Origin: Niallia sp. XMNu-256
GTDB lineage: Bacteria; Bacillota; Bacilli; Bacillales; Cytobacillaceae
Assembly (NCBI RefSeq): GCF_036670015.1
Contig: NZ_CP137636.1
Coordinates: forward strand, 32,501 to 90,000
Direction of reading: 5' to 3'
Length of the DNA stretch: 57,500 nt
This document shows, piece after piece, positions 584 to 12,270 of this stretch. The first letter of the stretch is position 1. Each line of letters begins with the position of its first letter. The translations under genes and the position numbers were made by a program. Under the pieces are notes generated by a model. It did no database searches. It saw only the letters and a program-made list of their open reading frames with translations, and was not told the origin of the DNA.

Positions 584-2011
584 ATGAATCATTCAATAAC
601 CCCTTTATATAATAGATTAATCAATCATATTAAGAAACATCCAATTTCCTTCCATGTTCCAGGGCATAAACAGGGGATAATTTTTACAGAACCGTTTTCA
701 TATTTTCATGACATACTTAATTTAGATGTAACTGAGTTAACGGGTTTAGATGATCTTCATTGCCCTGAAGGAGTTATAAAAGAAGCTCAGGATCTTTTGG
801 CGTCTTTATATAAAGTTAATAAGAGCTATTTCTTAGTAAATGGATCAACGGTAGGCAATCTAGCTATGATATTGGCTGCTATAAAAGAGAATGATGAGGT
901 ACTAGTTCAGCGAAATAGTCATAAGTCTGTCCTTAATGGGATTGAATTGGCAGGGGGCAAACCTGTTTTCCTAGACCCTGAATACAATGAACAATGGGCT
1001 ATTTCTCAAGGAGTTTCTCGAGAAATGGTTCAACATGCACTAGATATGTTTCCAAATGCTAAGGCGCTTGTTCTCACATATCCGAATTATTACGGACAGG
1101 TTAATGATCTTGAAGGCATTATTAAAATCACGCATAGCAAGAATATCCCTGTTTTGGTTGATGAGGCACATGGTGCTCATTTTATTACAGGGGGGGCATA
1201 TCCAAAATCAGCCGTTCAATTAGGAGCTGATATAGTCGTTCAATCTGCACATAAAACTCTCCCTGCCATGACCATGGGTTCGTTTTTACATATAAATAGT
1301 CGATATATTTCAGTTGAATCGATAGAAAAATACCTTCATATTTTGCAGTCAAGCAGTCCGTCCTATCCAATTTTAGCTTCACTTGATCTAGCGAGAAGCT
1401 ATGCAGCGACCTATGAGGATGACGATCATGAATACTTAAAGAAGGAAATAGAAACTTTTAAAAATAAACTCCATCAATTGGATCAAATTAATGTACTTGA
1501 GAGCAGTGAAGGGGATTTGCTTAAACTTACCATTCAAACAGCGAATGAATTAAGTGGATTTCAAATGCAATCTTTGTTTGAAGAAAAAGGTATTTATACA
1601 GAAATGGCTGACCCAGCTAATGTCTTACTCGTTCTTCCACTTTTAAAAAGGGGGATGGACTTTCCCTTCGATAAGGTAGTTGATACCATAGCTAGTTCAT
1701 TAAACCCCTATAAAATACAGAGAAGGACAATCATTAAATCTAAATATCAGCCAAGAGTTTCAACTCTAGTCATTCATTCAAATCAATTTACCCAATGGAA
1801 GGTAAAAGAGGTTAATTTAAGGCAATCAATAGATGGAATTGCTGCAGAGCCAGTTACTCCTTATCCACCAGGAATTCCGATATTAATGCCTGGAGAGAGA
1901 ATCACAGAAACAGTTGTTGAGCAAATAGAAGGTTTAATCGAAACTGGGGCAAGGTTTCAAGGGAATCCGAGAATTTACAAGCGATTAATCTATATTTTTG
2001 AAAAACAGTGA
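584..2011 (+). CDS. yaaO: Orn/Lys/Arg decarboxylase family protein (YaaO-like)
   Basis: This is a PLP-dependent fold-type I decarboxylase of the Orn/Lys/Arg family (475 aa). Visible are [10 protein letters not shown] near the N-terminus, TGLDDLH, NGSTVGN, the aspartate of VDEAHGAH, and the PLP lysine in SAHKTLPAM at about residue 224. The C-terminal [13 protein letters not shown] motif is also typical. The longest frame opens at a TTG at 551, but ATG-584 gives the family N-terminus ([12 protein letters not shown]) and follows an AAGGTG element. The substrate cannot be told from sequence; SpeA/arginine decarboxylase is a paralogue. It is probably co-transcribed with tmk, whose start lies 19 bases after its stop. 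Confidence 0.88.
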
Positions 2012-2030
2012 GTTGGAGGAAACAGGACAA

Positions 2031-2666
2031 ATGGGTTATTTTATTACTCTTGAAGGTGTAGAAGGCTCTGGAAAATCTACGCTTATTCAAAATTTAAAGG
2101 AATTTGTCGGAAGTATCGGTAGAGAGGTTATTGTTACTAGGGAACCGGGTGGAATTGATATCTCTGAACAAATACGCTCAGTTATTTTGGATACAAAAAA
2201 TACAAAAATGGATGGCCGCACGGAAGCATTGCTTTACGCTGCAGCTAGAAGACAGCATTTAGTTGAGCGAATCATCCCTTCGTTACAGGAGGGAAAGGTT
2301 GTCTTATGTGATCGGTTTATTGATAGCAGTTTAGCTTATCAAGGTTATGCTAGAGAGCTTGGCATTGATGAGGTTTTATCGATCAACGAATTTGCAATTG
2401 GAAGTTTTATGCCAGATTTAACAATATACTTAGATTTGGATCCTGAAATTGGTTTGAGTCGGATTCGTAAAAATAAAGGGAGAGAGGTCAACAGGCTGGA
2501 TTTAGAGGAAATTCACTTTCATAAGAAGGTTCGAGAAGGTTATGAGGCTGTTATAAAGAGGTTCCCTGAGAGAATCGTGACAGTAGATGCAAACCAGGAA
2601 TTTAATAAAGTATTTGCAGATGTAAAAGAGGTATTTTTGGATAGAGCAAAGGAAATATTTAACTAG
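2031..2666 (+). CDS. tmk: Thymidylate kinase
   Basis: Phosphorylates dTMP to dTDP. The 211-aa protein has the P-loop GVEGSGKST at the N-terminus, the [12 protein letters not shown] motif, the TREPGG motif for dTMP binding, and the LID region. ATG-2031 follows GGAGGA (2015-2020) and gives the standard N-terminus ([12 protein letters not shown]); an upstream in-frame ATG at 1998 lies inside yaaO. In B. subtilis tmk is followed by darA (yaaQ), yaaR and holB; here a large convergent gene follows instead. Confidence 0.97.
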
Positions 2667-2763
2667 TTAGGCAGGCAAAATGGGGTATTAAGTTCGGGTA
2701 GAAATCCGGTCAAATAAGAGAAAGGGTTTCTAGGTCCGCGTGCTGCTTACAAATCAACCAAGA
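2667..2763 (+). other. Unexplained stretch between tmk and the glucan synthase gene
   Basis: About 97 bases hold no open frame. A possible hairpin pairs AGAAATCC (about 2700-2707) with GGGTTTCT (about 2724-2731), one wobble, without a following U-run, so it is not a good terminator. No known riboswitch core was recognised. This is the left edge of the region where darA and yaaR would be expected. Confidence 0.35.
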
Positions 2764-2790
2764 AAACCCCCATTCAAAGAATGGGGGAAG
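2763..2790 (-). terminator. Terminator of the glucan synthase gene
   Basis: An 8-bp perfect stem (CCCCCATT 2767-2774 with AATGGGGG 2780-2787) is flanked on the left by AAAA, which reads as a U-run on the minus strand. It lies just past the stop of the minus-strand gene. Confidence 0.8.
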
Positions 2791-2796
2791 GTATTC

Positions 2797-5700
2797 TTAT
2801 AATCGAATCACGACAAAATGTTCATTACCGTCGTTTAGGAGTTCGATCGCGAAACCAGTGTCAAGGGAATCATTAATTAAATCAACTCCCTTTCCATCAA
2901 CTTTAATTCCAGTGGATCCTGTATGATTTTCAACTTCAATTGTATAGACCGTATTTCCATAGCGATAAGAAGCTGAAAAACCAGGCCAATCCCGAGGAAT
3001 TTTCGGGTCAATTACAAGCTTATCTCCACGACGTCGGATACCGAGTATCCACTCAATCCCAACTTGGTACATCCAGCTTGCGGCACCGGTATACCATGTC
3101 CAGCCTGCATGACCTTCATTTGGTATAGCGGTGTACACATCGGCTGCCATTGCGTATGGCTCTCCGACATATCGTTTAACCTCTTGATCGGTTCGGGTGT
3201 GATTCATCGGGTTCAGCATATTGAACATTTCCATCGCTTTATCCCCATTTCCAAGCTGACACCAAGCAACAATTCCCCAAATGACCCCATGAGTATATTG
3301 GGCGCCATTTTCCCTAAGACCTGGTGGGTACCCTTGAATATAACCAGGGCTCGGTTCTGTTTGATCAAAAGCCGGAGTTAACAAGCGAACAACTGATAAT
3401 TCTCGTTCAACGAGTTCACGGTCAAATGAATTCATCGCTTGTTGGGCACGTTCTTCCGGGGCACCACCAGATATGACGGACCAGGATTGGGCAATGGCAT
3501 CAATTCGACATTCATCATTTTCAATGGAACCTAACCAGTCCCCAGAATCAGTAAAGGCCCGGCGGTACCATTGACCATCCCATCCATGTTCATTTAAGGC
3601 GGCAACCAACTGTTCTCTTCTCTCAATGTAGCCTTTTGTCTTTTCAGAATCACCACGGTTATGACAAATTTCCTCAAACCGCCTTAACACATCACAAATA
3701 AACCAGCCAAGCCAAACACTTTCTCCACGGCCATTGGCACCAACTAAGTTCATGCCATCATTCCAATCCCCCACACCGATGAGTGGCAATCCATGTTCGC
3801 CAATACGTGACAGGGCTTTATCAATAGCCCGTAAGCAGTGCTCGTAAATATTGGCCAATTGAGAGGATTGAACGGTTGGCTCATAGCGTTCATGCTCACC
3901 TTCTTTAAGTGGTTCACTATGGAGGAACGGTACCACTTCATCTAATAGACTATCATCACCTGTATGCTCCATATACCTGGATACTGTATAGGGGAGCCAC
4001 AATAAGTCATCAGAGAATAGAGTTCGAATTCCCCGTTGGGTTTCTTCATGCCACCAGTGTTGAACGTCACCTTCTTCATATTGGTGGGAGGCATGTAGTA
4101 ATATTTGCTTTCGGGTTAATTCTGGCAAAGTATGCAGCATCGCTAAGGAATCTTGTAATTGATCCCGGAAGCCATAGGCACCTCCTGCCTGATAGAAGGC
4201 TGTTCTAGCCCACATTCGACAGGCAAGGGATTGATACAATAGCCATCCATTTAGCAGAATATTGGTTTTAACAGATGGGGTTGAAACTTGAATTTGATTT
4301 AAATGGTCTTCCCAAAATGTGATGACCTCTTGGAGTGCCTCCTCACAAGCAACGGGTTGACTATACTTGTTAGCCAATTCCACAACAGTCTCATTATCAT
4401 CGTCACAGCCTAAAAGTACATAGACAACTTGCTCTGATTGTGGCTCAATTACGAGCTTTTGTTGAATTGCCCCACAGGATTCATGAAACACACCCGTTCG
4501 ACAAGTTAGTGAAAGATAATCGAAAGCTTCAGGATGTTCCAATGAACCGTTACGGCCAATAAATTCGGTTCGATCTGTTGTCCACGATTGATTTTCCACT
4601 AGTTTGCCGCTGTCATCCTTAGGGAAAATGCCTAAAAAGGCAATTGCCTCACGGAAAATCTCTTGATACGTATTTCTTGCGGTTAAAATATGAGCAGTCT
4701 CGTTCCACTCTGAAACGATATAAGGTGCATTTGCCGGTCTCATGACACCGAGCACCCATTCAGCATAATACGTTAAAGAAATCTGCCTCTGTCGATCACT
4801 ATTGTTTTTCAATACAACCCTCATAATTTTAACCGGATCTTGTCTTGGAACAAAAACAGTCATTTCATGGAAAATTCCGTTACGTTCATGTTCAAAACGT
4901 GAATACCCTCGGCCATGTGTGACTTTATAAGGTTCCTTCGCTTTAATAGCAGAAGGAGTAACAGACCAAACCTTGCCGCTTTCTTCATCTCGTAAAAAGG
5001 CTGTCTCTGTTGGCGAATCTAGGACGGGATCATTTGACCATGGAGTTAGCTTAAACTCGCGACTGTTATTCCACCATGTATAGCCTGTCCCTAGCTCCGA
5101 TATGAACGTACCGAATTTTGGATTAGCCATGACATTAATCCATGGTGCTGGTAAGTGGTGTCCGTCTTTTATTAAAATATTGTACTCGTTTCCATTAGGA
5201 GAGAATCCCCCCCAGCTATTGAAAAACTGCCAATTTTTTGTATCCTCCAGCCGATATTGATCAGAAGATGGAGAATAGGAAACAAGAGGGGTAGCAGGAA
5301 CCAATTTCTCTCTTTTTATAGCATCATCTTTGTCTTTAGGAATGCGCATTTGTGCTTTTAAGCTGACTCCGCCAGCCTGTAAAATTAAGCGGGATACAGC
5401 CAACAATAGACTTTTATCTTCTTCTGGTAATTGGTTTGCGGGAATTGCAAATACCCCGGAAGAACCAGCACCAAAGCGATTGACCCCATGCTCAGCTGCA
5501 CGCTGCAACGATTCCTGTAAGTTTTGCTGATACCCACCTGCTGATTCATTGAGCAGGACAAGGTCAAATAAAATTCCAAGTCGTCGTAAATACTCATGAC
5601 CCGTTAAGATTTTTACAATGAAAGGCATCTGACTTTCATTTTCAATCCGAACGAGTAAGATTGGACGGTCACCGGAAATTCCGTATGACCACAGGCTAGA

Positions 5701-8700
5701 TTGGCCTTTTTGATTGTTCAAAATGCTACTCTCACTCTCTTTACGAAGAGGGGAGCGGTATAAAATTTGGCTTGCTAGGTATTGGTATTCGGTCGCTTCT
5801 TTACTTGATAAGTGTAAATTTCGCAACTCGATCTGAGCTCGATTCCAAGCCATTTGAAAGGCTCTTTCCATTGAATGGTCTGGTGTCAACTGGCGAACAA
5901 TCTCAATGGCCTCTTCACGATTCTCACTCACAGAGGTAATCGCAAACATTTGAATTTGTTGGCCCGGCTTGATGGATACCCTTCGTCTCATAATGAAGGC
6001 TGGGTCGGCAACAGACCCTACTTTTCCACGAAGACGGGAACGAATCGCTTGTGGTTCTGATAAGCGATAGCCACGGCCGATGAAACTAGAGCGACTCGTA
6101 TCATACTCAATCGTTCCCATCTGACCGCCTTCTAAAAGGATCTTATGGGCAGCCCATAAAGTTTGATCGCCTTTTTCCCGAGGTCTTCTACCAGCAACAA
6201 GACAGCCTGCATGTTGGTCAAATTCCGTCCGAATAAATAATTTGCTAAATGCGGGATGGGCTTCATCAGCAATTGGATTCGCTAAGGCTAATTCAGTAAA
6301 GGTTGTTACCTCAACCACCTTAGATTCTTCACTTGTATTGTTTAATGTGATCCGACGAATCTCTGCATTCCATTCGGGAGAAACGCAAATCTCCATGGAT
6401 GTTTTGAGATCGCCATCTATCCTTGTAAAGGTAGCTTTATCCAATCCAAATCCTACGTGTTGATCCAATGATTCAACTTTACACGGCTGGTAAGAGGGAG
6501 ACCAAACTCGATCCGTTGAAATATCACGTATATAAACATAGTTCCCCCAGTGGTCCATAACTGGATCAGGGCGCCATCTTGAAACAAGTAACCCTTTATA
6601 AAGGGTGAACCCGCTTCCACTGTTCGTCACCACCGTTGTAAAAGAACCATTCGACAGAACATTTACCTCAGGAGTTTGCGTCTTTGGTGAACGATACTCT
6701 CTTACAGAGACAGCGTCCTGTTTTTGTTTACTATTTTCCACATGATCTTGGGTTAAGGCTGGATGTTTTATAAATCGTGCTTTTTTCGGAATTCGTTCTT
6801 GTAAAAGCAGCTCAGCGGCCCGTACTTGTTTATTACGATGGAATCGCTCATAAATCGGTGTCGGCAGTAATACATTGGCAAGCGTTAAGAAACTCATTCC
6901 TTGGTGATGGGCCATAAAACTGCGAACCACCATATGTTTTTTATTTTCAGGTAAGCGTCTCTTCGTAAAATCGATCGCTTCGTAATAGCCATACTTTCCT
7001 CTTCCATTTAACTTTTCAATTTCCTTTAATGTTTGTAAGGCCTTATTCTTGGCAAAAGGAAGCGAAAGGATGGTAGCGTAAGGGGCCACAACTAAGTCTT
7101 GTTCTAGTCCACGTTTAAAACCTAGACCAGGAACCCCAAACGCACGATATTGATAATTCATTTGATAATCGAAGGCGTAGAAGCCAGATTCGGAAATACC
7201 ATAAGGGACGCCCCGATTCTTGGCATATTCGATTTGCCGCTCCACAACAGCTTTGTACGTACTTTCCCATAGGGAGTTTCTATAGGTGCGCGTAAAGAGC
7301 CAGGGCATCAAGTATTCGAACATGGTAGCGGACCAAGATAGCAATACAGGTCTTTTTCCCACTCTAGTCATTGTTCTACCGAGTGCTTTCCAATGTGAAA
7401 CAGATACTTGTCCTAAAGCAATCGAAATAAAACTTGCTGTTCTTGCCTCAGAAGCCATTAAATCATAGAGAATATCATCACGTTCATGCCGCTCCACATG
7501 GTATCCCAATGTGAACAGCTTTGCATCATGATCGTATAATGGAACGAAGTTGGTTTCCCTAATCATTCTGTCCATTCGTTTAATTAGCTTTCTTCCTTTT
7601 TCAATCCATTCGTCGCTAAGCGGATTTCGCAAAATTTTTCCAGAGCCAACTGGTGTCAGCTCCTCTGAAAAGGCAATTTGCAATGAGTCAAATTCACTAT
7701 AGTTGGTATCTGCAGTAACATCATTTAAATGAAGTAAATCTGCTAATCCTTCTTTAACCGTAATGAGGCAACCTACAAGGTTTCCAGAATCTACAGTTGA
7801 TACGTAAATAGGGGACAATGGTTTTAGTGTAACGGTGTCATACCAGTTGTAGAGATGTCCTTCCCATTTTTCCATTTTATCAAGCGTATCTAACGTTCTG
7901 TCCAATCTTTGTATCAATCCAGGTGTATCAATAAAGTGGAAATCCCTTGCTGCTAATATACAGGTTAAATATAACCCAATATTAGTTGGTGATGTTCGGT
8001 GGGCAATTCCGTTTGGTGGATCGATTTGAACATTATCAGGCGGTAACCAGTTGTCCTCCTCGGTTACATAATCCTCGTAAAAAGACCAGATCTCCCGTGA
8101 GAGCTTTCGGAGCTCTTCTGTTTCTTCCTTTGAAAAGGAAAGTCTCTCTTGACGCACAGGTTTGTTCAACCACCCCACCATGAATGGTGTACTTGTCCAT
8201 AAAGCAGCAAGAATTAAACCAATCACCCTAACGGCAGTATTTTCATAGAGAAAAGTTGCAAGAATGAAAAGCCCAATTAGAAGATAACCACCATACAAGC
8301 CATAAATGTGATTTCGATTATGGGAATGTTTACGTTCTTCTTCCGCTGCCGTCGTCCATTGGAGTAATTGCCTTTTTGAAATGATCAGACGGTATAACGT
8401 TCGAGCAATTGCATCAAGCAATACGGCCGTTTGAAACGGCAGAGTAATAATTAAAACCATTACTTGGCCAAGGGTATAAAGAAAGCCCTTGAAATTCTGT
8501 ATGACATTCTGTATCGGTACCAATGATCGGAATACAGGAATAAATAAAGTTGCCATCACAATGAACACCCATCTTAATGGGGAACCCGGGAGTACGGTTA
8601 ATGCTAATAGCAATGTAAAAAACAGAGCCGGAGAAAGTAAACTTCGACGTAAATTATCAAAGATCTGCCAGCGTGTTAAAATGGACAAATCAACGGGTGC

Positions 8701-11022
8701 CAGTTCTCCATTTCGATTGCGGGCTTTTGGAAATAGCCATAATAGCAGTTGCCAATCCCCACGTACCCAACGATGCAGCCTTTTTTGATAAGAGCTAAAA
8801 AGGGAAGGATGATCATCAATTAATTCAATGTCTGACAGCAATCCAGCACGGAGAAAACCGCCTTCTAATAAATCATGACTCAAGACACGGTTCTCCGGAA
8901 TTCGATCACAGAGGACTTCGTAAAAGGCATGGAGATCAAAAATTCCCTTACCTGTGAAAATCCCTTGACCAAAAGCATCTTGATAGGCATCAGATACGGC
9001 AAATGCGTAAGGATCAATTCCTGGATCTGAAGACCATAAATTAGCAAGATTTGATTTGGTAGTCGCATTATGACTAATGGCTACCCTCGGTTGTAGAATG
9101 CCGTAACCTTCAATGACTCTTGTACCAGATGGATTTAGTCTTGGTTGATTATATGGGTAATGCAGCGCCCCAATCATGCGATGAGCACTTTCTAAAGGGA
9201 GCTCAGTATCAGCATCAAGAGTAATAATATAGCGGACCTCTTTTAATGCTTGGAGGTTTCCTTCAATAACCGAAAAACTTGTCTCTTTTTTTCCTTTTAA
9301 TAGCTCAACAAACTCAACTAACTTTCCACGCTTTCTTTCCCATCCCATCCATTTCTTTTCAGACAGATTCCATTTTCTTTGTCTCTGTAACAAATAAAAA
9401 GAGCCTTCTGGATAAGATTGATTTAATTGTCTAATCTTTTTCACTGCCGTCTTTAGGAAGATGTCATCCTCTGGACAAAGCTCTGAATCAGCATCAGCAA
9501 AATCACCTAATAAGGCAAAATGGAGATGCTGATGTTTATTGGCTAAGTAGTGCAATTGGAGCCGATCGGCTAATTCCTCTACTTCTTTTACCGATGACCA
9601 TATAACAGGAATGACAACAGCTGTTGCCGCTTCTTTTGGAATCTCCTTGGAAAAATCATATCTTAGCAGATGAACGGGTTCTTTCGTTTTTTCTATAAAA
9701 TAATGTACTCCGGTTATGGCCCATTCCAATGCTGGAAATGACAGGACCAAGAGGACAGCCAACCATTGGAATGGTGAAAGAACTTGATCCCAGCCAATTA
9801 ATAGAGTAAATGCGAATAAAAAACCTGCAAAAACCCCGCCAAGAGTATTGAAATACGTTGCTGCCGGACGTCGCATAATTTGTGTTTCAGGTACCGGTTT
9901 TGGCTTTCCACATTTTTTAAGTGCCTTTCGTAAAGCATCGATGCCATCTGGCTCGAATAAATAAAAGGCAACATAAGCCTTGCGAGGCAATGGTTCGGAG
10001 CGGTTCTTTGAAAGACCCTTTACAAATGCTTCAACAAGCTCAATGGCTTGGGTTGCGACTAGGTTTTCCGGAAGTTTAAAACGACGGCTTAAATATTCAA
10101 CCCGCTTCCGAAGGGTATTCCGACTAGAAAAGTCTAATTTGGCATAGGTTCCGGTTGGCTCTTTTCTAAGTGTTTGCTCAACAACGGAAATCTGTTCAAA
10201 TGTTTCATGCCAATTCCACCGATTTAATTTTCGTAGGCTTGTAATTAGATTGCCCGTGGAAATTCCAAATGAGGACTGGAGCTGGTATTCGTAGGATAAG
10301 ATATGGTCAAGGCTTTCAGGCCCATTTTCCAACTTACAAACTAACCATTCTCCAACGGTAGCGGTATAATCGGCTCTTTCTCGTAAATGGGTCACTAGAT
10401 GGACAATCATTGGCCCCGAAAGAGGGAATTCCTGTCCATAATTCTCCAATACTTCATTTAGCCTTTCAGGGGTAATCTCGCTTGTCTCGAAATGGGAGAG
10501 CACATCCTCAACGAAAGCACAGGTTTCATGACGTTCTTTTAAAGTATTCATCACTTCAGCTAGACGGTGAATCAGAGCTACTCTCATAAACATTGGAATC
10601 GACCATACTTCAGACATAGTTAGTACGGATACTTCCTGGTAGGCACGTACATAGGAAATAAAACTATCCATATTTAAATTTCCATCTGTATACTTTATAT
10701 AATCCTTACAAATTGAAAAAATCCGGGCTTCCTTTGTTTTCTTTAAATGTGGAAGTAAATTGACGACCTTTTTTGTCAGTTCCTCTTTAATGACTAAGGC
10801 TTGTTCTTCCAAAAACTCAGCGTTATCGAGGAGCCATTCTTCAGCAGGCTGGGCACAAGAGGCTCTTTTTTCACGTAAAAGATGAACGAAAGAACGTAAA
10901 TCCTCAATATCTGATTGACCCAATCCCCAAAAAAGTTTAGATGATTTACGCTTCATATGAGGGTCATGGTTCAATGCAGACTTATGTGCTTCCTCTCTAA
11001 GCTGTTCTTGACTTAAAATCAC
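2797..11022 (-). CDS. Cyclic beta-1,2-glucan synthase-like protein (GT84 + GH189-like + GH94)
   Basis: This is an intact 2741-aa, multi-domain membrane protein matching cyclic beta-1,2-glucan synthases (NdvB/Cgs). Residues 1-385 are a soluble helical region; two membrane segments lie near 390-445. A GT2-like GT84 domain follows, with DADTE (about 605), HDLLEG (about 717) and HRWVRGDWQ (about 753), then further membrane segments at about 800-950. A glycoamylase-like middle domain (about 1000-1390; ESGFYAFDYQ, MAHHQG) corresponds to the cyclising domain now numbered GH189. Two beta-sandwich modules lead into a C-terminal GH94 phosphorylase domain with GDWNDGMN (about 2419; catalytic Asp). Known enzymes elongate, shorten and cyclise beta-1,2-glucan from UDP-glucose. 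The GTG start follows AGGGGG eight bases upstream. Sampled 60-base stretches look richer in G+C (32/60 and 25/60) than glmU (16/60), hinting at transfer. No export gene adjoins it. Confidence 0.9.
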   Translation of the reverse strand: MILSQEQLREEAHKSALNHDPHMKRKSSKLFWGLGQSDIEDLRSFVHLLREKRASCAQPAEEWLLDNAEFLEEQALVIKEELTKKVVNLLPHLKKTKEARIFSICKDYIKYTDGNLNMDSFISYVRAYQEVSVLTMSEVWSIPMFMRVALIHRLAEVMNTLKERHETCAFVEDVLSHFETSEITPERLNEVLENYGQEFPLSGPMIVHLVTHLRERADYTATVGEWLVCKLENGPESLDHILSYEYQLQSSFGISTGNLITSLRKLNRWNWHETFEQISVVEQTLRKEPTGTYAKLDFSSRNTLRKRVEYLSRRFKLPENLVATQAIELVEAFVKGLSKNRSEPLPRKAYVAFYLFEPDGIDALRKALKKCGKPKPVPETQIMRRPAATYFNTLGGVFAGFLFAFTLLIGWDQVLSPFQWLAVLLVLSFPALEWAITGVHYFIEKTKEPVHLLRYDFSKEIPKEAATAVVIPVIWSSVKEVEELADRLQLHYLANKHQHLHFALLGDFADADSELCPEDDIFLKTAVKKIRQLNQSYPEGSFYLLQRQRKWNLSEKKWMGWERKRGKLVEFVELLKGKKETSFSVIEGNLQALKEVRYIITLDADTELPLESAHRMIGALHYPYNQPRLNPSGTRVIEGYGILQPRVAISHNATTKSNLANLWSSDPGIDPYAFAVSDAYQDAFGQGIFTGKGIFDLHAFYEVLCDRIPENRVLSHDLLEGGFLRAGLLSDIELIDDHPSLFSSYQKRLHRWVRGDWQLLLWLFPKARNRNGELAPVDLSILTRWQIFDNLRRSLLSPALFFTLLLALTVLPGSPLRWVFIVMATLFIPVFRSLVPIQNVIQNFKGFLYTLGQVMVLIITLPFQTAVLLDAIARTLYRLIISKRQLLQWTTAAEEERKHSHNRNHIYGLYGGYLLIGLFILATFLYENTAVRVIGLILAALWTSTPFMVGWLNKPVRQERLSFSKEETEELRKLSREIWSFYEDYVTEEDNWLPPDNVQIDPPNGIAHRTSPTNIGLYLTCILAARDFHFIDTPGLIQRLDRTLDTLDKMEKWEGHLYNWYDTVTLKPLSPIYVSTVDSGNLVGCLITVKEGLADLLHLNDVTADTNYSEFDSLQIAFSEELTPVGSGKILRNPLSDEWIEKGRKLIKRMDRMIRETNFVPLYDHDAKLFTLGYHVERHERDDILYDLMASEARTASFISIALGQVSVSHWKALGRTMTRVGKRPVLLSWSATMFEYLMPWLFTRTYRNSLWESTYKAVVERQIEYAKNRGVPYGISESGFYAFDYQMNYQYRAFGVPGLGFKRGLEQDLVVAPYATILSLPFAKNKALQTLKEIEKLNGRGKYGYYEAIDFTKRRLPENKKHMVVRSFMAHHQGMSFLTLANVLLPTPIYERFHRNKQVRAAELLLQERIPKKARFIKHPALTQDHVENSKQKQDAVSVREYRSPKTQTPEVNVLSNGSFTTVVTNSGSGFTLYKGLLVSRWRPDPVMDHWGNYVYIRDISTDRVWSPSYQPCKVESLDQHVGFGLDKATFTRIDGDLKTSMEICVSPEWNAEIRRITLNNTSEESKVVEVTTFTELALANPIADEAHPAFSKLFIRTEFDQHAGCLVAGRRPREKGDQTLWAAHKILLEGGQMGTIEYDTSRSSFIGRGYRLSEPQAIRSRLRGKVGSVADPAFIMRRRVSIKPGQQIQMFAITSVSENREEAIEIVRQLTPDHSMERAFQMAWNRAQIELRNLHLSSKEATEYQYLASQILYRSPLRKESESSILNNQKGQSSLWSYGISGDRPILLVRIENESQMPFIVKILTGHEYLRRLGILFDLVLLNESAGGYQQNLQESLQRAAEHGVNRFGAGSSGVFAIPANQLPEEDKSLLLAVSRLILQAGGVSLKAQMRIPKDKDDAIKREKLVPATPLVSYSPSSDQYRLEDTKNWQFFNSWGGFSPNGNEYNILIKDGHHLPAPWINVMANPKFGTFISELGTGYTWWNNSREFKLTPWSNDPVLDSPTETAFLRDEESGKVWSVTPSAIKAKEPYKVTHGRGYSRFEHERNGIFHEMTVFVPRQDPVKIMRVVLKNNSDRQRQISLTYYAEWVLGVMRPANAPYIVSEWNETAHILTARNTYQEIFREAIAFLGIFPKDDSGKLVENQSWTTDRTEFIGRNGSLEHPEAFDYLSLTCRTGVFHESCGAIQQKLVIEPQSEQVVYVLLGCDDDNETVVELANKYSQPVACEEALQEVITFWEDHLNQIQVSTPSVKTNILLNGWLLYQSLACRMWARTAFYQAGGAYGFRDQLQDSLAMLHTLPELTRKQILLHASHQYEEGDVQHWWHEETQRGIRTLFSDDLLWLPYTVSRYMEHTGDDSLLDEVVPFLHSEPLKEGEHERYEPTVQSSQLANIYEHCLRAIDKALSRIGEHGLPLIGVGDWNDGMNLVGANGRGESVWLGWFICDVLRRFEEICHNRGDSEKTKGYIERREQLVAALNEHGWDGQWYRRAFTDSGDWLGSIENDECRIDAIAQSWSVISGGAPEERAQQAMNSFDRELVERELSVVRLLTPAFDQTEPSPGYIQGYPPGLRENGAQYTHGVIWGIVAWCQLGNGDKAMEMFNMLNPMNHTRTDQEVKRYVGEPYAMAADVYTAIPNEGHAGWTWYTGAASWMYQVGIEWILGIRRRGDKLVIDPKIPRDWPGFSASYRYGNTVYTIEVENHTGSTGIKVDGKGVDLINDSLDTGFAIELLNDGNEHFVVIRL

Positions 11023-11181
11023 TTTAATTTCCCCCTAAAAATTACATTGCAAAATCTGCATTATATAAATGTGCCCAAATTAAGGAAAAATTATGCATTT
11101 TAAAGGGAAAGCCTGTTTGGTTCGGATTTTTGCAAGGTAGCAACAATGCTATTACAGGTGTTTGTTTCAACAAATTCTTGC

Positions 11182-11187
11182 TATAAT
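11182..11187 (+). promoter_or_regulatory. Extended -10 promoter before holB
   Basis: TGCTATAAT (TATAAT at 11182-11187, TG at 11179-11180) is an extended sigma-A -10 about 60 bases before holB. No good -35 is seen. In B. subtilis holB lies within the tmk-yaaQ-yaaR-holB cluster; here the opposing glucan synthase gene separates it from tmk, so it needs its own promoter. Confidence 0.55.
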
Positions 11188-11250
11188 AGAACTACATCAT
11201 AAGAAAGAGTTTCTATGATAAAAAGATAAATCATTAATATAAATAAGTTA

Positions 11251-12270
11251 GTGAGTGATAGTGTGGTAAATACGTGGGAGGAAATCCAGAAAATACAGCC
11301 TGTTGTCTTAAAAATGATAAAGAATAGTTTAGAAACGAAGCGAATTGCCCACGCTTATTTATTCGAGGGAATGAGAGGAACAGGAAAAAGAGAAATGGCC
11401 ATGCTTTTGGCGAAAGGCTTGTTTTGTCTATCTCCTCAGGATGAGGTTATTCCTTGTGAGAATTGTATAAATTGTAAAAGAATTAATCATGGCAATCATC
11501 CTGATATTCATATCGTTGAACCGGATGGATTATCGATCAAAAAACAACAGATCGGCGAATTACAAAAGGAATTTTCAAAGACAGGATTGGAAACGAACCA
11601 AAAGTTGTACATGATCTATCATGCAGACCGAATGACCGTCAATGCTGCAAATAGTCTGCTTAAGTTTCTCGAAGAGCCTCATCCCCAAACCTATGCTATT
11701 TTAATCACGGAACAGCAACAGAGGATGCTGCCAACAATCTTGTCGCGTTGCCAAATTCTCTCATTTAAGCCCTTATCCACTCAATACTTTATTGAGAAGC
11801 AAATCGCAATGGGCATTAAGAGTGAAAAGGCACCACTAATTGCAGAGCTTACTAATAATTTAGATGAAGCTTCAGAGCTGAGTAATAATGAATGGTTTGC
11901 ACAAGCCCAAAAGATAGTGGTAAAATTATATGAAGTGCTTATGAAGAGTTCTTTAGAAGCACTCGTTTTTCTTCAAGAAGAATGGTATCCGCACTTTAAA
12001 GAAAAGGAACAAATTGATCGTGGATTAGATCTTTTACTTCTTATTTATAAAGATTTATTATATATACAAATTGGGAAACAAGAGCAGACGGTTTATGTCA
12101 GTGAAGCCCCAAAGATAGGACAGTATGCTTTCAAAATTTCAGGTCGGCGTTTGGCAGCACAAATGACAACGATTTTGGAAGCTAAGAGAAAGCTTCAAGC
12201 GAATATGAATACACAATTGTTAATGGAGGAGCTAGTGCTTAGCTTGCAGGAGGGATCTTCAAATGTATGA
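11251..12270 (+). CDS. holB: DNA polymerase III subunit delta'
   Basis: This is the clamp-loader delta' subunit (up to 339 aa). It has an AAA+ fold with Walker A FEGMRGTGKRE (about 39-49), a four-cysteine zinc site (FCLSP...CENCINCKR), a LLKFLEEPHP Walker B/sensor region and the SRC motif (TILSRCQ). The start is uncertain: GTG-11251 gives the longest frame, while GTG-11263 gives the family length (MNTWEEIQ...), and neither has a good SD. Its stop overlaps the ricT start by eight bases, so the two are translationally linked. Confidence 0.95.
   Translation: MSDSVVNTWEEIQKIQPVVLKMIKNSLETKRIAHAYLFEGMRGTGKREMAMLLAKGLFCLSPQDEVIPCENCINCKRINHGNHPDIHIVEPDGLSIKKQQIGELQKEFSKTGLETNQKLYMIYHADRMTVNAANSLLKFLEEPHPQTYAILITEQQQRMLPTILSRCQILSFKPLSTQYFIEKQIAMGIKSEKAPLIAELTNNLDEASELSNNEWFAQAQKIVVKLYEVLMKSSLEALVFLQEEWYPHFKEKEQIDRGLDLLLLIYKDLLYIQIGKQEQTVYVSEAPKIGQYAFKISGRRLAAQMTTILEAKRKLQANMNTQLLMEELVLSLQEGSSNV

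Follow-up and report, generated by a model that had tools for sequence, protein, structure and literature searches.

The presence of a gene for a cyclic beta-1,2-glucan synthase (cgs) in Niallia sp. XMNu-256 raises the question of what such an enzyme is doing in a Bacillus-like spore-former, and whether it is a regular member of its family. The ring-building enzyme is known from Agrobacterium and Brucella, and most accounts of cyclic beta-1,2-glucans present them as Proteobacterial factors with an osmotic role or a role in host interaction. The gene was found in a stretch of 57,500 nucleotides of contig NZ_CP137636.1, the whole of which is referred to here as the window. We conclude that cgs is very probably a normal member of a known family: it is intact, possesses all three modules and the key residues, and belongs to a Bacilli-type clade, while its product and role are those that we infer from better-known enzymes.

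Gene structure, modules and active-site residues

The gene is a single intact frame of 2741 codons with a GTG start and no internal stop, and the opposite (plus) strand of the same interval is full of stops. The limits, the length and the motifs DADTE, HRWVRGDWQ and GDWNDG given in the preliminary description are all exact; the strand, which it did not give, is minus. The gene and its immediate surroundings are as follows.

1998..2666, plus strand: tmk (thymidylate kinase), left flank, converging with cgs
2767..2787, minus strand: hairpin resembling an intrinsic terminator directly 3' of the cgs stop, 9 pairs followed by TTTTCTTGGT
2797..11022, minus strand: cgs, 2741 residues
11031..11036, minus strand: AGGGGG, resembling a ribosome-binding site and ending 8 bases 5' of the GTG (found by eye)
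11179..11187, plus strand: extended -10-like TGCTATAAT, which could serve holB (found by eye; absent from the promoter-scan list)
11215..11243, minus strand: promoter-like site 5' of cgs, 9 of 12 matches
11251..12270, plus strand: holB (DNA polymerase III delta prime), right flank, diverging from cgs

All the parts of a synthase are encoded in one unbroken gene, which has start and stop signals of its own. Promoter-like sites are not in excess in its upstream region (15, as against 20.3 in shuffled sequences). The neighbours of cgs are YaaO, Tmk, HolB, YaaT and YabA, so that no exporter adjoins it, as had been stated earlier. Pfam recognizes Tmk, HolB, YaaT (PSP1), YabA, SpoIIE, FtsH and TilS in the window, which confirms that this is the conserved origin-proximal block, and the SpoIIE encoded there marks the host as a spore-former. 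A recent foreign insertion was considered and rejected: the GC3 of cgs (0.352) falls within the range of the 23 other window genes (0.269–0.397) and its codon usage, with a correlation of 0.90 to those genes, is ordinary for the window. Its whole-gene GC of 0.422 is at the high end and is exceeded by one of the 23.

The protein can be divided into the following parts, all encoded on the minus strand.

9853..11022: N-terminal scaffold region, residues 1–390, aligning with Agrobacterium Cgs from residue 54 (domain name after PMC10901819)
8170..9852: stretch whose two ends hold membrane segments, from hydropathy
8647..9705: GT84 domain, approximately residues 440–792, with D507, D603 and D605 (DADTE), D717 (SHDLLEG) and R751 (HRWVRGDWQ)
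9007..9009: Tyr672 (GIDPY), equivalent by alignment to Y694 of Agrobacterium Cgs
6748..8160: GH189 cyclisation domain, residues 955–1425, with E1192, E1236, E1278, H1372 and H1373
2812..6735: C-terminal GH94 glycoside-phosphorylase part, approximately residues 1430–2737, with the catalytic acid D2422 (GDWNDG)

Three Pfam matches exceed their cut-offs, namely the GH94 supersandwich (512 bits), the GH94 catalytic domain (419 bits) and, in the middle of the protein, Glycoamylase PF10091 (69 bits); a fourth, Glyco_hydro_65C, remains below its cut-off (20.3 versus 22). Both PF06165 and PF17167 are above cut-off and D2422 is in place, as expected for a phosphorylase domain. The GT84 part contains no best-scoring Pfam stretch, and the NCBIfam search of the protein returned no family. 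The GT84 assignment rests on phmmer, which aligns residues 54–1095 with Agrobacterium Cgs (595 bits). The domain searches bear out the GH94 module of the preliminary description, and its GT84 module is recovered by phmmer. Together, the two segments aligned with Agrobacterium Cgs (8rf0/8rf9), residues 54–1095 and 1153–2708, score 1815 bits, and the middle (cyclase) part also aligns with the Thermoanaerobacter cyclase 8wy1.

Hydrophobic runs flank the GT84 domain at residues 391–439 and 793–951 (hydropathy windows, merged by hand). They could be read as six transmembrane helices and one interface segment; the Agrobacterium enzyme has six transmembrane helices (PMC10901819).

The key residues, for which PMC10901819 and PMC10834661 demonstrate or propose a role, were located in the window protein through alignments. 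D507, D603, D605, Y672, D717, R751 and D2422 correspond to Agrobacterium D527, D624, D626, Y694, D739, R773 and D2528, of which Y694 carries the glucan primer (PMC10901819); E1192, E1236, E1278, H1372 and H1373 correspond to Thermoanaerobacter E1356, E1400, E1442, H1536 and H1537. Eleven of these 12 catalytic or primer positions are invariant in all 76 full-length relatives, and D507 is found in 75. The alignment comprises 76 of 88 extracted proteins, after removal of 10 shorter than 2650 residues and two second copies from genomes already included.

An AlphaFold2 model of residues 955–1425, built from 41 cyclase domains, has a mean pLDDT of 85.6. Its best match in the PDB is 8wy1 (E 5e-40), with a TM-score of 0.85 by query and 0.70 by target and a large rmsd (12.2) in the overlay. 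It is followed by Agrobacterium Cgs and then by beta-1,2-glucanases such as 8xuj, 5gzh and 6imw. Sequence identity of the domain to its nearest solved relatives is 38% (8wy1) and 35% (8rf9). Model confidence is low just after the nucleophile (model residues 326–335, protein residues 1280–1289) and in an insert discussed below. Taken together, the sequence, the residues and the predicted fold support the proposed GT84–GH189–GH94 synthase.

Relatives and the shortened insert

The view that these enzymes are mainly Proteobacterial was not borne out, and cgs cannot be regarded as a rarity in its phylum. In a sample of 398 genomes from the phylum, 58 encode relatives with synthase or cyclase parts, and among 193 genomes from the family 24 have a long synthase match, the host being included in both counts. 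In the phylum sample 78 genomes had a match at E 1e-100; apart from the 58, 19 had only a stand-alone GH94 protein and one a GH94 end on a short frame. In the family sample 46 genomes had a match at E 1e-3, and the 22 without a long synthase had short GH94 or GH144-like matches. The best 80 of at least 597 relatives come from Bacillota, Pseudomonadota, Bacteroidota, Verrucomicrobiota and other phyla. No second GH94 or PF10091 protein was found in the host genome, where PF17167 and PF10091 match cgs alone.

Seven genomes (G008, G009, G016, G023, G055, G086 and G164) lack a long synthase match and possess a cyclase-like frame of 453–505 residues. Judged by sequence, these are perhaps GH144-type beta-1,2-glucanases, consumers rather than makers of the glucan.

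In a phylogenetic tree (FastTree with local supports; uneven composition was flagged in most rows), the window protein groups with those of Bacillus sp. V3B and other Bacillaceae inside the Bacilli-type clade, and a Thermoanaerobacter metagenome-assembled genome is found in the sister clade. The placement that had been suggested as a check was thereby obtained. The Bacilli-type clade also holds Paenibacillus and, nested within it, Sporomusa and Pelosinus. Sporomusa and Pelosinus have an outer membrane. Because their synthases (L008, L009) are nested among sequences from Bacillota with a single membrane, the gene may have been transferred between lineages with different envelopes.

The insert of the cyclase domain lies between residues 1098 and 1149 and comprises 50 residues. 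In Agrobacterium it has approximately 120 residues and forms a four-helix dimer contact, which is described as a protrusion from the structure rather than a piece of the active site (PMC10901819). In the window protein the four-helix insert is reduced to what the model predicts to be a mostly disordered loop, with 31 residues (model residues 147–177) at pLDDT below 50. Its length is 14–81 residues in 38 of the 39 Bacilli-type rows (111 in the most basal row) and 133–196 in all nine sister-clade rows. The remaining 28 rows fall into 23 with 102–211 residues and five with 17–30. The short insert is therefore a mark of the Bacilli-type clade that is also seen elsewhere.

A cyclase without the usual insert might have diverged in function, with the Bacilli-type enzyme making a linear, differently sized or protein-bound beta-1,2-glucan. 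The low-confidence loop and the difference in length between most of the clade and its sister clade speak for such a change. However, the cyclase residues are invariant in all 76 rows, five of the 28 rows outside both clades have short inserts as well, and the insert is described as a protruding dimer contact rather than a piece of the active site. We consider divergence very unlikely and retain the reading of cgs as a normal family member.

The site between tmk and holB

The order tmk–cgs (antisense)–holB is found in three of the five genomes of the genus (G000, G002 and G003). In the other two, G001 and G004 (L137 and L139), cgs is missing and tmk and holB are neighbours, separated by a few dozen bases. 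By eye, this gap includes a stretch resembling the bases that precede holB in the window (from approximately 11232 onward). Among the 11 cgs-bearing genomes of the family in which the tmk–holB interval was read, cgs occupies it only in these three. In relatives the interval contains darA, yaaR or both: the order is tmk–darA–yaaR–holB in G005, tmk–yaaR–holB in G007, and tmk–darA–holB in G012, G068, G137 and G157. Neither darA nor yaaR is present in the interval (2667–11250) in the window.

A tree built from up to six flanking proteins places G001 and G004 with G002 (support 93/97, short of the tool's star); the branching of G000, G003 and this group of three is left open by the same tree, in which G003 is only 42% filled. 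The simplest story, which these data do not settle, is that cgs was inserted before the genus split and was lost in G001 and G004. In G002 (L138, approximately 11310–11372) the bases preceding holB match, in frame, the last 21 codons of yaaR with 52–57% identity (E 0.01–0.04 in a tiny database), a weak sign in the sequence that cgs may have displaced darA and most of yaaR.

The scattered occurrence of cgs would also be seen if it were a decaying or silent gene that this strain has retained by chance. Three of five congeneric genomes and 24 of 193 in the family encode it (the host included), G001 and G004 may have lost it, and the synthase matches of G124 and G014 extend over more than one frame, although sequencing error is possible there. 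Against decay in the window stand 2741 codons without a stop, the conservation of all residues checked, the signals resembling a ribosome-binding site and a terminator, and ordinary codon usage. Decay is thus most improbable for this copy, which we continue to regard as an intact gene. In some lineages, to judge from the split matches in G124 and G014, breakdown of the gene may be under way.

DarA binds c-di-AMP, described as a messenger of potassium and osmotic control. Whole-genome searches with PF06153 recovered darA from 182 of the 193 family genomes and from none of the five members of the genus. Of the 10 family genomes without darA seven encode a synthase, versus 17 of the 182 that possess darA (Fisher p 1.9e-5; the value is 4.6e-5 if an eleventh genome, set aside for N in the region read, is included). 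This association was rejected as evidence of a link: nine of the 10 genomes without darA fall in two genera, so it amounts to approximately two events. In genus g6, too, four of five genomes are without darA in the interval, and there cgs is sited elsewhere. Since the synthase co-occurs with the absence of DarA in two related genera, one could propose that Bacilli-type synthases form their own functional branch, tied to c-di-AMP physiology. Enzymes of this branch would lack the four-helix dimer contact, and their cyclic glucan, not a substrate of an NdvA-type pump, would act in osmotic balance inside the cell or wall. We regard this proposal as very unlikely.

Export, proposed mechanism and known systems

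The best match to the exporter model TIGR01192 (chvA) in the host genome scores 338.6 bits, versus a cut-off of 585.4, among the 39 best of 106 candidates. The congeners that lack cgs reach scores no lower than this (G001, 340.1; G004, 351.2). When the 39 best candidates of each of 20 genomes were scored, only Stella sp. passed the cut-off; none of the 14 controls did, and five of the six Proteobacterial genomes with a synthase had no candidate above it. The preliminary description was correct that no NdvA-type gene lies beside cgs, but this lack is not peculiar to the host, and we rejected it as a special feature.

The neighbours of cgs were surveyed in 42 loci (41 from Bacillota and one from Calditrichota; flanks of up to 10 kb, shorter at contig ends; frames of at least 80 residues), with names given from reading of the sequences rather than from family searches. 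A GalU-like protein directly adjoins cgs in four loci (L017, L018, L026 and L035) and a nucleotidyltransferase-like protein is encoded directly upstream in four others (L037, L054, L055 and L059); both would suit the substrate. No other family adjoins cgs directly in three or more loci, and a conserved partner operon was rejected. An ABC ATPase family is represented in six loci and lies directly downstream of cgs in two, L056 and L058, which are close relatives. No other recurrent family supplies an ABC gene as a direct neighbour; this one possibly belongs to a transporter, so the synthase family as a whole does not draw a blank.

By analogy with the enzymes of Agrobacterium, Brucella and Thermoanaerobacter, the membrane-bound GT84 domain would most likely glucosylate Tyr672 as primer and, at the cytoplasmic face, use UDP-glucose to extend a beta-1,2-glucan. 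Trimming of this chain by phosphorolysis would fall to the GH94 domain, and the GH189 domain, with E1278 as nucleophile and E1192 as acid/base, would transglycosylate the chain into a ring of approximately 17 or more glucoses. As a guess, a general ABC exporter might carry this ring out of the cell, or the ring might stay in the cytoplasm and serve there as a neutral osmolyte or store.

The literature searched contains neither a measured product for an enzyme of the Bacilli-type clade nor work on a cyclic glucan made by Bacilli. To that extent the earlier remarks stand on the small number of characterised Gram-positive examples and on the unclear location and purpose of the glucan. The main text of a 2025 review of these synthases (PMC11842490) contains neither 'Bacill' nor 'Firmicutes' and calls T. 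italicus Gram-negative. A genome survey of Aneurinibacillus (PMC7996765) lists one GT84 gene in one strain; presence in Bacilli is therefore already on record, with a function not found in the literature searched. An intact synthase in a Bacillus-like spore-former, together with congeners that lack it (G001 and G004), provides a system in which the role and export of the ring can be asked about.

Among known systems, Agrobacterium Cgs (PDB 8rf0, 8rf9) shares the arrangement NTD–TM–GT84–TM–GH189–GH94, the primer tyrosine of GIDPY and the synthase, cyclase and phosphorylase residues. It differs in that the present enzyme has a Gram-positive-type host, an insert of approximately 50 rather than 120 residues and no scored exporter above the chvA cut-off. 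The cyclisation domain of T. italicus CGS (GH189, 8wy1) shares the fold and the five active-site residues and has a longer insert; T. italicus itself is outside our tree, in which the Thermoanaerobacter sp. row (L058) belongs to the sister clade. Listeria innocua Lin1839 shares the GH94 domain and is described as a stand-alone protein, without GT84 and cyclase (PMC3960220). The synthases of Bacillus sp. V3B, Paenibacillus, Alicyclobacillus, Sporomusa and others are full-length members of the same clade, with 43–70% identity in the best segment (among the best 80 of at least 597 relatives). In all, cgs departs from the known kind only in its shortened insert and its unusual address between tmk and holB, and it is an expected member of the family.
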